Shown here one piece after another: positions 4,936-63,209 of a stretch of DNA of 64,000 nt (positions are counted from its first letter, which is position 1; the number at the start of each line of letters is the position of its first letter). A model generated the notes under the pieces. That model saw only the letters and a list, made by a program, of their open reading frames with translations. It had not been told where the DNA came from and did no database searches. Both the position numbers and the translations under genes were made by a program. Source of the stretch: Owenia fusiformis (lineage: Eukaryota > Annelida > Polychaeta > Sabellida > Oweniidae); NCBI GenBank assembly GCA_903813345.2, contig CAIIXF020000002.1, positions 17,305,467-17,369,466 of the forward strand, given 5' to 3'.

Positions 4936-5205
4936 TCAAATTTTAGGTTTCTTTGCGGGGGATGGTTGACCAATATTTGCATCTACTACAGCTGGTTCTT
5001 CTACAAGCTTATTATGCAACTCCATCAAACCTTTGAAGTATTTAACAGTCTTTACTCGAAGTTCATCAGTGGCGTGTTCGTCACAGACAAATATTGTATG
5101 TGGGTGCTGTTGGAAGGCGGAGACTGTCCACATGTGATTGACACCTTCTTCTATGGCCTTGTGGAGAGCAAATGCTTTATGGGAGCCTGTGATCAGAATC
5201 ATTAC
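4936..5205 (-). CDS. GNPDA: GNPDA coding exon 5 (terminal)
   Basis: Encodes residues 199-287, from [12 protein letters not shown] to the lysine-rich end KKPKI and TGA. Acceptor TTCTGTTCCAG precedes GTAATG. Its first 122 bases were copied repeatedly into the intron just upstream. Only this copy continues into [11 protein letters not shown] and the rest of the C-terminus, so it is the only one able to complete the enzyme. Confidence 0.95.
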
Positions 5206-8200
5206 CTGGAACAGAATACAGGGTGTTTCAGAAAAACAAGGCAAATATAGAGTGTAGGTGCTGTTGGAAGGCGGAGACTGTCCACATGTGATGGACACCC
5301 TCTTCTATGGCCTTGTGGATAGCGAATGCTTTATGTGAGCCTGTGATCAGAATCATTACCTGGAACAGAATACAGGGTGTTTCAGAAAAACAAGACAAAT
5401 ATCATATGTGGGTGCTGTTGGAAGGCGGAGACTGTCCACATGTGATTGACACCTTCCTCTATGGCCTTGTGGAGAGCGAATGCTTTATGTGACCCTGTGA
5501 TCAGAATCATTACCTGGAACAGAATACAGGGTGTTTCAGAAAAACAAGGCAAATATAGAGTGTAGGTGCTGTTGGAAGGCGGAGACTGTCCACATGTGAT
5601 GGACACCCTCTTCTATGGCCTTGTGGAGAGTGAATGCTTTATGTGAGCCTGTGATCAGAATCATTACCTGGAACAGAATACAGGGTGTTTCAGAAAAACA
5701 AGGCAAATATAGAGTGTAGGTGCTGTTGGAAGGCGGAGACTGTCCACATGTGATGGACACCCTCTTCTATGGCCTTGTGGAGAGCGAATGCTTTATGTGA
5801 GCCTGTGATCAGAATCATTACCTGGAACAGAATACAGGGTGTTTCAGAAAAACAAGGCAAATATAGAGTGTAGGTGCTGTTGGAAGGCGGAGACTGTCCA
5901 CATGTGATGGACACCCTCTTCTATGGCCTTGTGGAGAGCGAATGCTTTATGTGAGCCTGTGATCAGAATCATTACCTGGAACAGAATACAGGGTGTTTCA
6001 GAAAAACAAGACAAATATCATATGTGGGTGCTGTTGGAAGGCGGAGACTGTCCACATGTGATTGACACCTTCCTCTATGGCCTTGTGGAGAGCGAATGCT
6101 TTATGTGACCCTGTGATCAGAATCATTACCTGGAACAGAATACGGGGTGTTTCAGAAAAACAAGGCAAATATAGAGTGTAGGTGCTGTTGGAAGGCGGAG
6201 ACTGTCCACATGTGATGGACACCCTCTTCTATGGCCTTGTGGAGAGCGAATGCTTTATGTGAGCCTGTGATCAGAATCATTACCTGGAACAGAATACAGG
6301 GTGTTTCAGAAAAACAAGGCAAATATAGAGTGTAGGTGCTGTTGGAAGGCGGAGACTGTCCACATGTGATGGACACCCTCTTCTATGGCCTTATGGAGAG
6401 CGAATGCTTTATGTGAGCCTGTGATCAGAATCATCACCTGAAACAGAACATCTTAAAATCTGGAGCAATTTCATAATAATTTTATATATTCATTTAAGCA
6501 GGGTTAACGTTCCACTCAATGTACCATAGAAACTGCAGTTTTGGTTACGAAAAAAATACAAAATCAATATTAGCGATTCAAATATGCCATCTATCTGAAA
6601 ACTGAAAAGTCAAAAGCAAATAAATTAAAGAACTTATCAAGCATGGATATTGATATCATATTCATTTTTGAAACATAGATGGGTCCTTGACAGACACATA
6701 ACATATCCCATTAGCCCACTGTATGAACCAAAAATTACGAGGCAAAAACAAAGTAGCCTTACATGTACATCAAGTTTCTTAACCCCCTTCATACAATCTA
6801 CTTTTCTATGTGGTAGCAAGATGTTTAGATTAGGCTTACAACAGGAAAAGGTAAGACTAACACAAAGCAACTTAAGCAATCTCACTGTACCTCAACATTG
6901 TAAAACAAGGCATTGACATACAAAATGTCACCATCTGCCATTCCTTGTAACAAATGCCGACCGCTCAATACCAGTTACTGACAGTCTGATGCTGACTGCA
7001 GAACTGTATCCACAAAAAGTTGGAAGAGTTTAACAATATGTCACCACTTTTTCATAATGACTCACCTCATCTGCATCCATGACTGTTTGAACACCAACAG
7101 TTAATGCCATTGTGGGCACCTTGGACAAATCTCCATCAAAGAACCTTGCATTTGCCATCACTGTGTCATGTGCCAGGGACTTGACTCTGGTACGGGATAC
7201 AAGACTTGAACCAGGCTCATTGAATGCAATATGACCATCTGGTCCAATACCTGCAATGAAAAACAGAACCTAGTAGGTATCTTAATAATCCAGCACTACT
7301 GAGAAGAATTTGTGCACATAGGTGAATAATATATGTGAATAAAACAATGGTGGTTGAACCAGGCTTGTAGAAAGCAATATGACCATTTGGTCCTATACCT
7401 AGAATGAAAATCAGTTTAAAGTGGCTATTTTGACAGTCTTTCTAGCGAAACTTCTGTACATAGGGCATAAATTATAAATAATGGCATGCATGGTTAATTA
7501 TGAATTCTGCTATTACAGTACATTGAAACCATAACATTCTCCTCATGCTTTTAATCATGAAAGTCAAAAGATAAAATCCAGCTTGTTGATTGGCTAATTA
7601 TGCTGACCTTGACACCATTTAATGGATAGGGGTGTGTCCCCATTGACCACTCAACAGGAAGTTAACTCAAACATAGAAAGAATGCTGCTTGTTCTTACCT
7701 CCAACAAACAGTCTAATTCCTCCAGCAAGTTTGATCTTTTCTTCAAAACTGTCACACTCTTTCTGTAGATCCTTAGCATTGCCATCCAGAATATGGGCAT
7801 TTTCTGGATTGATATCAATATGTTTGAAGAAGTTGTTCCACATAAAGGCATGGTAACTTTCTGGATGGTCCCTTGGAATATCTGCAAAGTAGAGTTATGT
7901 CTTTGAGAATTGTTTGTTAAACACAAGATCAAATTGAAAAAGTTTTTTCACAAGTTTTTCCATTAAGTCCCCCATTCACATGTATAAATTCACTTATCGT
8001 ATGCTCACCCATGCTAAATTTACCCACCAACACTAACTTCCCTATATACTACCCATTTTAAATCTATTCACCTACATTAAGTCACATACACGCTCATCCA
8101 TGTTAAATCTACTCAACTACACACATATCAAGTATATTCAGCTACACACCTATATTAAACATACTCAAGAGTCAATACATACTCATCCATGATTAATTTA

Positions 8201-9939
8201 CTCCCCTACATACTCATCCATGTTAGATGTACTCACCTACATACATATCCATGTTAAATGTACTCACCTACATACTCATCTTTGTTAAATGTATTAACCT
8301 CCATACTCATCCATGTTAAATGTACTCACCTACATACTCATACATGTTAAAGTTACTCACCTACATACTCATCCATATTAAATGTGCTCACCTACATACT
8401 CATCCATGTTAAATGTACTCACCTACATACTCATCCATGTTAAATATACTCACCTACATACTCATCCATGTTAAATGTACTCACCTACATACTCATCCAT
8501 GTTAAATGTATTAACCTCCATACTCATCCATGTTAAATGTACTCACCTTCATAATGTACTCACCTACATACTCATCCATTGCTTTATACAGTAAGGTTTT
8601 ATATCGAATCATTTAAAGTTTGAAACTATAGTATACAGTATAAGACATGAAGACCTTGTTTTTTAAACAGCCAGTTTTTCATACAAGTTAAAGTTACTCA
8701 CCTACATACTCATCCATCTTAAATGTACTCACCTACATACTCATCCATGTTAAATGTCTTGACATATTTGAAAGAGAGTTTTCCCTCCTTGTAGAATTTA
8801 ATCAACTCTTTGTATGTCCCAAGGGGTGTGCTACCTGGAATAAAACATGAACATATAATAAATCATTTGGAAGTTTTCATTTTCACCTTCCACAGTTAAG
8901 CCATATCAAAATCCAACATCAAATTGGGTTTACCTACAGGTGTACTCATTTTTACACAGAGTGTTTAAAAATCAAAGATAGTATGTTGCTTTATACAGTA
9001 AGGTTTTATATCGAATCATTTAAAGTTTGAAACTATAGTATACAGTATAAGACATGAAGACTTTGTTTTTTAAACAGCCAGTTTTTGACTGCATTAACAA
9101 GGATGCCTTATGAATTGACCACTGATGTTATCATGGCCTTTTAATCACTTAAAAGCCCATTCATTAATATTTTCTTTCAAGCAATCAAAAATTGATTTTT
9201 ATTTTATAAATGAAAACTGGTATTATTTATATTTCAATACATATGTAATTATGCATGCTTTAATCATATTGATTTTCATTTACTTTTCACAGCTTGTATT
9301 GCAATAATTTCGAAATCAAAAAAATTGTTGGAACATTTGCATTTTATTGCATGTTAGCTGAATGCAGAACATCTCAACATAGAAGGAAGTGAAAATGTTG
9401 AAAGCAATATTCTCATACACTTGCCAATTCAAAGTCTAAACATTGAAAAAATAATTTGAGAAATCTGATCAAGAAGTAAATGGTGAAAGGTACATCATGC
9501 ATTTCAATATGCAAAAACATTTAAAACAATTAACTAAGGTTTTAAAGAATTTTAACATAATGCATCAATGGAGATTTGGCCTAAACTTTTTTTTTAGAAA
9601 AGTTGAAAAAGTTATTTACATAACACAACTGTATAAATTAAAGTTATCTTTGTGGAAAATCGTTCAAATATAACATTAAAAAGTAGGAATGTAAATCAAG
9701 TCATTAAGAGGTTTAATATGCAAATCTCTTGAAAAATCTCAGAGAATAAGCGATATTTCAAAGCCATATAGAAACTCCTCTATTTTAATATGGGGCTAGG
9801 TACTATTGCACTAACCTGTAGGGAGTCCAAGAGTGAAGAGTCTGTCCTTGTCTGGATTGAAAGCATTGATCTTCTTTCGGATGTATTTAGCTGCCCACAA
9901 ACTAACATCATCATATTTGTCTAGGATAACTAGTCTCAT
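4936..9939 (-). CDS. GNPDA: Glucosamine-6-phosphate isomerase (deaminase), complete gene, five coding exons
   Basis: Converts glucosamine 6-phosphate to fructose 6-phosphate plus ammonia, linking amino-sugar breakdown to glycolysis in the cytosol. Coding exons in order are 9939-9816, 8834-8733, 7881-7699, 7250-7066 and 5205-4936. All introns are GT-AG and the phases (1,1,1,0) fit, giving 287 aa, against 289 in human GNPDA1. Family motifs are intact: the LGLPTGSTPLG phosphate loop (37-47), general-base Asp72 in NMDEYV, Asp141, His143 and Glu148 in [14 protein letters not shown], Arg158 and Lys160 (allosteric-site positions in bacterial NagB), then [11 protein letters not shown] and [14 protein letters not shown]. 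The N-terminus (MRLVILD) is nearest GNPDA2-type proteins; it is probably the single invertebrate co-ortholog of GNPDA1/2. An acceptor-like tract ends directly at the ATG, so a non-coding 5' exon should lie upstream. Introns carry repeats derived from its own exon edges. Confidence 0.97.
5206..6437 (-). repeat. Eight tandem 154-bp partial copies of GNPDA exon 5 with splice acceptor
   Basis: Acceptor junctions recur at 5359, 5513, 5667, 5821, 5975, 6129, 6283 and 6437, exactly 154 bases apart, continuing from the real one at 5205. Each unit holds about 122 bases of exon (VMILITG to SIFA or MIFV) and about 32 bases of intron side, then a new acceptor. Two unit types differ by linked changes: type B keeps VNHMW and HPHMIFV, type A has VHHMW and HLHSIFA. 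From low to high coordinate the order is A B A A A B A A, so a four-unit block (616 bp) was duplicated later. After the exon part each unit reads LFF then TGA. The outermost copy's intron side differs (CTGAAACAGAACATC), marking the original edge. Confidence 0.95.
6438..7065 (-). other. GNPDA intron 4, unique part
   Basis: Between exon 4 and the exon-5-derived array. Short open frames on both strands at 6637-6916 show no family features and no splice context. Nothing else recognised. Confidence 0.5.
7066..7250 (-). CDS. GNPDA: GNPDA coding exon 4
   Basis: Encodes the active-site block [16 protein letters not shown] (Asp141, His143, Glu148) and [10 protein letters not shown], then [10 protein letters not shown] and MDADE. 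Acceptor CATTGCAG at the high end, donor GTGAGT at the low end. Starts in phase 1 and ends in phase 0. Confidence 0.97.
7351..7414 (-). pseudogene. Decayed partial copy of GNPDA exon 4 start with acceptor
   Basis: On the minus strand, TTTTCATTCTAG then GTATAGGACCAAATGG mirrors the real exon 4 acceptor and start (TTTTCATTGCAG, GTATTGGACC). About 48 bases of exon and 16 of intron are copied. The translation reads GIGPNGH and AFYKPGS: the catalytic Asp141 is Asn, and the Asn-Glu pair at 147-148 is Tyr-Lys. It could not replace exon 4. It is older than the exon 5 array, judging from divergence. Confidence 0.85.
7699..7881 (-). CDS. GNPDA: GNPDA coding exon 3
   Basis: Encodes [15 protein letters not shown], then [20 protein letters not shown] and a helical stretch to GGIRLFVGG. 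Acceptor ACTTTGCAG, donor GTAAGA. Phase 1 at both ends. Confidence 0.97.
7990..8580 (-). repeat. 31-bp minisatellite made of GNPDA exon 2 end plus splice donor
   Basis: About 13 clear 31-bp units lie at 8176-8580 and decayed ones continue towards 7990. On the minus strand the unit reads ATGGATGAGTATGTAG then GTGAGTACATTTAAC. The first half is the last 16 bases of exon 2 (codons Met71 to Val75 plus one base, including catalytic Asp72). The second half begins with a full GTGAGT donor. Many units keep both parts. The unit length is not a multiple of three. One and a half further units lie at 8686-8732, joined to the real exon end at 8733. Confidence 0.93.
8579..8679. repeat. 101-bp direct repeat, copy inside the minisatellite
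   Basis: Nearly identical to 8986-9086. It interrupts the 31-bp array between two units, so it was copied into the array after the array had formed. Starts TTGCTTTATACAGTAAGG. Confidence 0.9.
8733..8834 (-). CDS. GNPDA: GNPDA coding exon 2
   Basis: Encodes [15 protein letters not shown] and [13 protein letters not shown], with the catalytic Asp72 four codons before the donor GTGAGT. Acceptor TTTATTCCAG. Phase 1 at both ends. Its 3' edge seeded the minisatellite just downstream. Confidence 0.97.
8986..9086. repeat. 101-bp direct repeat, upstream copy
   Basis: The partner of 8579-8679, on the other side of exon 2, 407 bases away. Nearly identical, so recent. Function unknown. Confidence 0.9.
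9087..9815 (-). other. GNPDA intron 1, nothing recognised
   Basis: AT-rich intron; the short plus-strand frame at 9125-9307 is low-complexity and unlikely to be coding. Confidence 0.5.
9816..9939 (-). CDS. GNPDA: GNPDA coding exon 1 (start codon)
   Basis: ATG at 9939 opens [20 protein letters not shown] and runs to LFTLGLPT plus one base of Gly42; donor GTTAGT. The bases directly before the ATG are CCCCTCCCCTTATATTTGTAG, a good acceptor, so the exon probably begins at or next to the ATG and the 5' UTR lies in an exon further upstream. Confidence 0.95.
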
Positions 9940-15712: not shown

Positions 15713-50092
<34,380 letters not shown>

Positions 50093-61781: not shown

Positions 61782-63209
61782 TTTTTTTTTTTTTTTTTTT
61801 ATTAATCATCTTTATTATATTCCATAAAATACAGCTGTACAAACTTAAACAATTGCCAAAGTCTAGTGACATTGTCGGCAATTTTGAGTGAAATCCAAAG
61901 GAATGTTATTAAATTTTTACATAATAAGTTATTTTTATGTCATGTTATTGTTAAAATAGATGAAAGAAAAAGTCAATAAAATATCATCACACTACACTCG
62001 TATATCACAAAGATGTGTAAGGTTTTTTCCCTTGGCCAGAGGGATTTCAGTTGTAACATGTTGTAATCGATTACATGTCCAAAAGATCTAGACCCTGGTG
62101 GATATAATATGCTACTATGTTCATTAGTTTCTCATTGACATCTACTGGAAATTTATTATCTCCAAAAAGTAAGAACTGGGATTGATCATGCATATTAAGT
62201 CCATCATAGTGGGTACGGATCCCTATCGTCTCCAGTCCTGCAAGTAGTGTTGTTCTCTGTTCTGTCAGCAGAGGGCATTTCAACAGGAAATGTAAAGTTG
62301 TCTGGTTTATATTGTCACATAATTTAGGATTAGCAACCCGTTCAAAGTTGTGTGCATGGAGGTGAGCTTGCAAGAGAAGTCCGGACCTGAGTCGGTTTAG
62401 AGGAATTTCTAGGTAGCGAGGCATGGCATTTTTTAGTTTTGACGTTGATAGGGTAGAAGCATGGCTTCCATCGCCTCTTACTATTCTTTTAAATCTTGAA
62501 ATTGGCTGACCAATTCTATAATCTGGTGGAAGGTTATTCCAAAGGGCCATACCTTTAAAAATTGTAGATTTCTTAGCCAAAGCGCTTGTTTGAAGGGGAA
62601 TCTTATAGTCCCTATGGCTCCTTAATGAGCGCACTTGTATATCATTCTCATAGGACCTGACAAGATTACAAATGAAAGGAGGAAAGTTATTGTATCTTGC
62701 TTTAAAAATAAATATTTTGAGATGTTCCTCTCTTCTAGAGGATAATGTTTTCCAGTTTATTGATGAGAGAACTTTATTAGTGTTCGAGCCATGGATTGCT
62801 CCAGAGACTAGACATGCTGCTCTATAATGTAACCGTTCAAGAGATTGCAATTTGGTATCTGATGCACTATTGTATATGATGTCACAATAGTCAAAATGAG
62901 GGAGTATGTACGCATTATATAAAGTTTCAAGGTGCTTGCTTGACAAGATCTTGCAGAGTTTCTTCATGGGCCTCATCAGGCTTATTACTTTGTTAATTAA
63001 TTGATCAATGTGAGCGTTGAAGTTTAGGTGCTGGTCAAGAGTAAGTCCGAGGTGTTTATGAGTATTACATCTAGGGACTATTTCCCCGTTCATTTTCAGA
63101 GGAGGAGGTTCAATATTAATGTTTCTATGTCCAGTGAATATCAAATCAGCGCTTTTCTGTGCTTTAAATAACATTTTCCAAGTTGCAGCCCAATCATACC
63201 TGCCAACCT
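61782..63209 (-). mobile_element. 5'-truncated LINE with poly(A) tail
   Basis: A poly(A) tract (T-run 61782-61800 on the plus strand) follows AATAAA-like signals and a 3' UTR of about 270 bases; the coding part ends at 62071. The 5' end breaks near 63200 inside the reverse transcriptase. It is a different family from the LINE at 36673, which has a simple-repeat tail. Confidence 0.85.
62071..63209 (-). CDS. LINE ORF2 C-terminal region (end of reverse transcriptase to stop)
   Basis: The frame enters with YDWAATWKMLFKAQKSADLI, the segment just after the catalytic FADD block. It continues HKHLGLTLDQHLNFNAHID (thumb), ILPHFDYCDIIYNSASDTKL, a helical domain with WNNLPPDYRI, and a late Cys/His segment (CDNINQTTLHFLLKCPLLTE) typical of LINE C-terminal tails. 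About 379 codons are open with no frameshift. The catalytic motifs, endonuclease and ORF1 are missing, so it is inactive although well preserved. Confidence 0.88.

Follow-up and report, generated by a model that had tools for sequence, protein, structure and literature searches.

How an exon-intron boundary comes to be repeated in tandem inside its own gene, and what such a repeat means for splicing and protein, are the questions raised by the glucosamine-6-phosphate deaminase gene (GNPDA) of the annelid Owenia fusiformis. The gene lies on the minus strand of the window analyzed here, a stretch of 64,000 nucleotides (contig CAIIXF020000002.1, positions 17,305,467 to 17,369,466) in whose own numbering all GNPDA coordinates are given. 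We consider it likely that the arrays in this gene are splice-boundary minisatellites of the type called mirages in amphioxus, made by tandem duplication across the boundaries and hidden by use of the outermost splice site. Judged from sequence, the same anatomy is present at other genes, and GNPDA is no isolated oddity.

An exon end repeated at the start of intron 2

As an earlier note on this DNA had claimed, GNPDA intron 2 starts with a 31-bp repeat of the exon end plus GTGAGT, and both Tandem Repeats Finder (TRF) and the sequence itself confirm it. On the minus strand the unit reads ACATTTAACATGGATGAGTATGTAG|GTGAGT, that is, 25 exonic nucleotides and six intron bases; the first copy (8757-8727) is the real exon-2 end, with the exonic part at 8757-8733 and, at 8727-8732, the six bases that open the intron at the authentic donor TAG|GTGAGT. 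The exon end encodes the motif MDEY, presumably catalytic residues of the enzyme, and the intron that follows is of phase 1. The array occupies 7990-8757 by TRF and tiling, with good units to ~8200 and a decayed tail to ~7990: TRF reports 12.2 copies with 89% matches at 8176-8553 and 2.3 copies with 92% at 8688-8757, and tiling that allows up to 12 mismatches against the unit finds 17 windows from 8757 to 8080, the perfect ones being the exon copy and two others. The ladder is not continuous but is interrupted at 8679-8579 (minus strand) by 101 bp derived from intron 1, where the matching segment lies at 9086-8986 with 99% identity (one mismatch). Template switching or conversion appears to account for this insert better than slippage alone, and together with the unit variants the insert provides indirect signs, within one assembly, that array length may be unstable between haplotypes or cells.

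The gene model that frames the array comprises five coding exons, whose in-silico splicing yields an uninterrupted protein of 287 aa matching human GNPDA1 (1ne7, E=4.9e-150). Exon 1 with the ATG start (9816-9939) and the last exon in the form used for the full protein (4936-5205) are placed by gene model and protein match, and exons 2 (8733-8834), 3 (7699-7881) and 4 (7066-7250) by gene model, all on the minus strand. A profile search of the genome with PF01182 did not recover this gene, so genes with short exons can escape family searches in the O. fusiformis genome. The same search gave further Glucosamine_iso matches at L001 (C6:1453735-1454403) and at C6:9,502,395-9,504,598, one of them within a 544-aa open frame.

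The earlier note had also taken the exon end to be the seed of the repeat and had named a copy elsewhere in the genome as the observation that would speak against it. Such a copy was sought and none was found, and the exonic part of the unit belongs to a gene that matches GNPDA1, both of which support the claim. The 22-mer ATGGATGAGTATGTAGGTGAGT occurs seven times in the 498-Mb genome, always at the GNPDA locus, with no occurrence of its reversed control, and a DNA query of three units returned eight matches, again all at this locus, in a search that skips simple repeats and very common words. A minisatellite that came first or is unrelated, with the exon merely adjoining it or having taken its sequence, would suit a window with 35 TRF rows (some overlapping), but the exonic copy codes for part of a conserved enzyme and the unit was found nowhere else; we regard this order of events as extremely improbable.

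Donor strength and the reading frame

We approximated donor strength by the duplex predicted with the 5' end of U1 (ViennaRNA). The authentic exon-2 donor pairs at -12.0 kcal/mol. Among the intronic sites ten fall between -12.0 and -12.5 and one lies at -9.5, and two in the decayed tail reach -10.0 and -9.3 kcal/mol. Among the window's 6616 GT sites, with the array's own counted in, approximately 0.26% attain -12.0; of the minus-strand sites at -11.9 or better, 11 belong to the array and 4 lie elsewhere in the window. The expectation that intact units hold strong donors is thus borne out by prediction unit by unit, with intact ladder sites equal to the authentic one.

The frame tells a different story from the one first proposed. 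Across the authentic donor the codons run GTA GGT GAG TAC ATT TAA, and the in-frame stop at 8721-8719 (minus strand) falls in the first intronic unit, ahead of every ladder donor. From each of the 11 alternative donors tried, 8701 to 8236, translation consequently meets a stop at codon 80 and ends the protein after 79 residues, including the choices that add multiples of three (186, 279, 372 and 465 nt). The suggestion that three added units would restore the frame was therefore wrong, and translation rules it out. Among the sites tried, only the authentic donor and acceptor give the full 287-aa protein in silico. These results also bear on the idea that donor choice along the ladder yields GNPDA proteins with extra repeated residues: 31 x 3 = 93 is indeed divisible by three, but the TAA precedes every ladder donor and all 11 choices truncate, which leaves this idea with next to no probability. 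The ladder as a diversifier of the GNPDA protein is refuted by truncation; such a role is possible at two arrays discussed below, L017 (33-bp unit, 160 codons open) and L051 (42-bp unit).

Messenger RNAs with a premature stop and introns still downstream are expected targets of nonsense-mediated decay, and GNPDA RNAs spliced from ladder donors should be among them. One may accordingly picture the ladder as a regulatory device, in which a share of transcripts uses ladder donors, nonsense-mediated decay sets the GNPDA level and the copy number acts as a dial. The intact ladder donors match the authentic one in predicted strength and each one tested gives a premature stop, as this proposal would have it, but the distal units of the 31-bp array decay freely, unrelated genes carry the same structure, and two of the 17 cases tabulated below remain open far past the donor. 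We therefore judge regulation by the ladder unlikely.

Repeated acceptors in the same gene

The far end of the gene presents the mirror image of the donor ladder. A 154-bp array at 5088-6448 (minus strand; TRF, gene model) repeats the acceptor and first part of the last exon, so that nine acceptors open exon starts at 6437, 6283, 6129, 5975, 5821, 5667, 5513, 5359 and 5205, and only the most downstream of them yields the full GNPDA protein in silico. Each of the eight upstream acceptors leads to a 241-aa product ending in ALFF or VLFF, whose stop lies within the last exon, so the RNA might escape decay. Compared across 112 exonic nt, the nine copies show 90-100% identity. Units 3 and 7 do not differ from one another and share 90-92% identity with the other upstream units and 95% with the last, which suggests that block duplication shaped the array. 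Self-correcting re-splicing of this acceptor ladder, through the GAG|GTAATG regenerated on joining to exon 4, was considered and is not claimed: its U1 pairing is weak at -6.7 kcal/mol, a value that places it in the top 4% of the window's GT sites.

Tandem arrays of mutually exclusive exons consist of copies that are each usable, with their own acceptor, open frame and donor. Such arrays and GNPDA share several tandem copies of one exon start before the last exon; in GNPDA, however, all eight upstream copies are closed by an in-frame stop, and the unit is bounded downstream by the next acceptor instead of a donor.

A third duplication precedes exon 4. At 7354-7414 (minus strand) the acceptor and the beginning of exon 4 are present a second time in decayed form, 85% identical over 61 bp and 76% over 85 bp. 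The exon-like part of this copy begins at 7398, 148 bp upstream of exon 4; a Pfam search with this pseudo-exon gave no match. Boundary duplications are hence present in three of the four coding introns of GNPDA, and to judge by their divergence they differ in age.

We propose that a local tandem duplication captured a short stretch across the exon-2/intron-2 boundary and that slippage, unequal exchange or template switching then multiplied the unit, once inserting 101 bp of intron 1; this amplification is supported by the unit variants and by the intron-1 insert. Splicing would still proceed from the outermost, authentic donor with the additional copies remaining intronic, any ladder donor would take in the TAA and end the predicted protein after 79 residues, and at the last exon nine acceptors mirror this arrangement, the full predicted protein arising from the most downstream alone. 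If the outermost site stays in use and the copies are kept intronic, boundary duplications would be tolerable; this would explain the position of the functional GNPDA donor at the upstream end of its ladder, that of the functional acceptor at the downstream end of its own, and the decay of distal units. On our best reading, the arrays are in the main by-products of DNA duplication that are tolerated and that at the same time constitute a standing source of mis-splicing and, possibly, of new introns.

The comparison with amphioxus is direct. Mirages are described there, in the available text of two papers, at Adh3, the globins BflGb6 and BflGb9, troponin C and PGBD5, with units of 10-160 bp, reportedly without disturbance of regular splicing and with an origin called unclear (PMC3087553, PMC3902484). 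Like them, the 31-bp and 154-bp arrays are minisatellite-like tandem repeats within a gene, their units span an exon-intron boundary together with its splice signal (25 exonic nt plus GTGAGT in one case, an acceptor and exon start with 112 exonic nt compared in the other), and they sit at a 5' or 3' exon edge, as a donor ladder at exon 2, an acceptor ladder at exon 5 and a two-copy acceptor duplicate at exon 4. Unlike amphioxus, the host is a protostome annelid; within the single gene GNPDA a donor array and an acceptor array occupy different exons alongside an older duplicate, and many genes are affected in a small sample of the O. fusiformis genome. A genome search for bantam, a microRNA specific to protostomes, gave one bantam-like locus (E=9.3e-8; 53 bits, below the 61-bit cut-off). 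Searches for the GFP family and for COX1 found nothing, the former saying little since it gave no match in any control genome either. Within the accessible portions of the open-licence literature we found no report of mirages outside amphioxus; the "mirage" of PMC10015627, in the text available, is a transposon.

One amphioxus mirage was aberrantly assembled in the draft genome, according to the accessible part of that report (PMC3087553), and a single assembly is examined here, so that false tandem copies from noisy long reads or from haplotype joining deserve consideration. Yet the units differ from one another, the 154-bp array has a higher-order structure in the identity of units 3 and 7, the 31-bp array contains an intron-1 insert, and arrays of other periods occur at other genes, which makes an assembly artefact highly improbable.

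Two further systems share part of this anatomy. A route to intron gain described in the available text of PMC4974935 is tandem duplication across an intron-exon boundary, which provides extra splice signals; GNPDA resembles it in just this respect and differs in that its copies apparently lie inside an existing intron, are many rather than two, and come with no demonstrated new intron. The earthworm metallothionein gene, as presented in the accessible part of PMC12783039, has minisatellites in intron 1 and exon-4 duplications, the duplicated exon pieces being absent from the transcript, with a mean repeat monomer of 178-181 bp. It is thus, like GNPDA, an annelid gene with intronic tandem repeats, and that part of the text does not mention a splice boundary within them.

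Strong-donor arrays across the genome

To what extent do strong-donor arrays elsewhere begin at exons? We searched the genome for three copies of AGGTGAGT spaced 22-52 nt apart and obtained 356 matches, as against 134 for the reversed motif TGAGTGGA, which served as control. The 100 of 356 matches listed form six arrays in the first 19.4 Mb of contig 1 (two blocks of the same unit 1.1 kb apart counted once), and in five of the six the first donor closes an open frame that can be followed upstream to a T-rich AG acceptor, L019 being unclear. The same search with AGGTAAGT gave 324 matches, and the 100 listed fall at 14 places, of which 13 were examined, the fourteenth sharing the L053 unit ~1.1 kb away; 12 of the 13 begin at an apparent exon, the exception being L045. 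The bare 8-mer AGGTAAGT occurs 19,109 times in the genome against 33,902 for its reverse, counts from which the number of real donors cannot usefully be estimated. Combined, and among the matches listed, 17 of 19 strong-donor arrays begin at the donor of an apparent exon. At 16 of these loci, GNPDA apart, 12 arrays share 15-53 nt with the exon end beside the donor and the L016 unit shares 11 (by eye), so that at least 11 exonic nucleotides are repeated in 13 of the 19 arrays and four (including L053) merely start at an exon's donor.

Protein matches identify several of these exons as parts of unrelated genes: Rieske at L018 (3.4e-8), Muted at L043 (5.9e-15), NIF phosphatase at L044 (4.9e-6), UGDH at L046 (1.5e-10, and 2e-18 in PDB), a KIAA0895-like protein at L047 (2e-7), an Ig I-set domain at L054 (1.7e-6) and NCS-1 at L055 (2e-10 in PDB), with weak matches to ABCC5 at L049 (0.01) and to an ion-channel entry at L050 (0.02). 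Reading on past the authentic donor meets a stop within 26 codons in 15 of the 17 tabulated cases (GNPDA and the 16 others), and L017 and L051 stay open.

The 134 control matches provide the comparison: the 100 listed form 16 arrays, one already counted as a donor array, and the other 15 were examined. Two of them start at the donor of an exon, where the donor sequence is a different one (L058, a TSP_1 exon with Pfam 1.5e-15, and L065, whose exon gave no match in a Pfam search), and both share fewer than 11 exonic nucleotides. Arrays starting at an exon's donor thus number 17 of 19 for the donor motifs and 2 of 15 for the control (Fisher p=1.2e-5), or 16 of 19 against 2 of 15 with the ambiguous L017 set aside (p=7e-5), and those repeating at least 11 exonic nucleotides number 13 of 19 and 0 of 15 (Fisher p=3.9e-5). 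The p-values are to be taken as a guide, given flank reading by a single unblinded judge; the control edges of four arrays were read less thoroughly than the donor flanks, and at L060, L066, L069 and L070 the examined edge is possibly not the true array edge. With these limits, the data show that most strong-donor arrays originate from genuine exon ends; the p-values do not imply that boundaries are hot spots. The priority of the minisatellite over the exon can be weighed here once more: two of the four control arrays that lie within 40 nt of an exon end do so without repeating the exon, which speaks for it, but 13 of the 19 sampled arrays repeat at least 11 nucleotides of their own adjoining exon.

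Several observations weigh against the derivation of the arrays from exon boundaries or against its generality. Arrays within 40 nt of an exon end make up 17 of 19 for the donor motifs but also 4 of 15 for the control (p=2.9e-4), among them one beginning 39 nt past a DHODH exon (L061, Pfam 1.1e-15) and one 31 nt past an aldehyde-dehydrogenase-like exon (L063, Pfam 0.0014, below the cut-off), in neither of which the exon sequence is repeated, and the control motif itself shares TGAGT with donors. By match number the AGGTAAGT search shows no excess (324 against 347 for the reversed motif), in a search where matches per array vary widely. A start at an exon's donor does not hold for L045 and L019, and L053 is a near-identical copy of L052. 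The exonic nucleotides shared beside the donor amount to 9 at L018, 10 at L050 and 5 at L052, which may be arrays that start at a donor and are not copies of exon sequence. Exon adjacency was judged by eye and unblinded, and protein support for the 17 exons is firm for seven, weak for two and absent for eight, of which all but L052 and L053 were searched. For GNPDA itself, the use of the authentic sites is deduced from the open frame, and array copy numbers come from one assembly and may be wrong.

The arrays take other shapes as well. At L046 (UGDH; 654-1886) a single exon has six upstream acceptor copies at a step of 130 bp, the last being its own, and a 45-bp donor ladder downstream. Outside the 19, two further AGGTAAGT places were examined: the exon at L075, tetraspanin-like by eye (Pfam 0.058), is flanked by a ladder on each side, and no exon was seen at L076. 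A genome-wide acceptor pattern gave 1552 matches against 275 for its control, a ratio we do not use, many listed matches resembling dispersed T-rich repeats; the four arrays picked by eye from it include two acceptor ladders of ~40-43 bp ending at an exon start, L072 (SMUG1, PDB 2.5e-34) and L071 (Sushi, 4.2e-4), a donor ladder (L073) and one array without a clear exon (L074). Each unit of L073 (~500-810; C1:20,247,310 on) combines a TTTTCAG resembling an acceptor with 26 exonic nt and a donor, which makes the array a series of potential micro-exons derived from an exon end. The 33-bp donor array of L017 (from ~2900; C1:5,412,399 on) stays open for 160 codons with the repeat VSPNAHSFDTE, and may be a ladder able to lengthen its protein in 11-residue steps or a coding minisatellite whose repeats are simply coding; the 42-bp unit of L051 is open throughout the 75 codons examined.

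Mirages at many genes of one annelid would turn them from a lancelet curiosity into something that recurs in animal genome evolution. Each array is also a natural experiment, with about a dozen near-equal donors in a row of which only the first is harmless, and junction reads at such arrays would directly reveal how a choice is made among identical splice sites. The open arrays with 33- and 42-bp units and the 26-nt micro-exon unit of L073 are ready intermediates with which tandem duplication can be tested as a route to new introns. Beyond being tolerated at boundaries, duplication may be preferred there, which is the most interesting possibility raised here: we tentatively entertain, as a possibility somewhat doubtful at present, that in some animals, protostomes and amphioxus, splice boundaries are preferred birthplaces of minisatellites through a process tied to the boundary, e.g. 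transcription- or splicing-linked DNA breaks whose repair involves template switching. If true, many genes would be expected to carry competing donor or acceptor ladders, which would supply new introns, micro-exons and in-frame repeat extensions.

Minisatellites are common elsewhere in the window, and a separate one of likewise 31 bp, with the unit AGGTGAAATGTACAGGGGTGAGACATCCAAG, lies at 23013-23225, with no adjoining exon by eye. On the minus strand, long open frames at 36773-38245 and 62071-63207 resemble, by eye, a reverse transcriptase of the long interspersed nuclear element type and the end of a related element.
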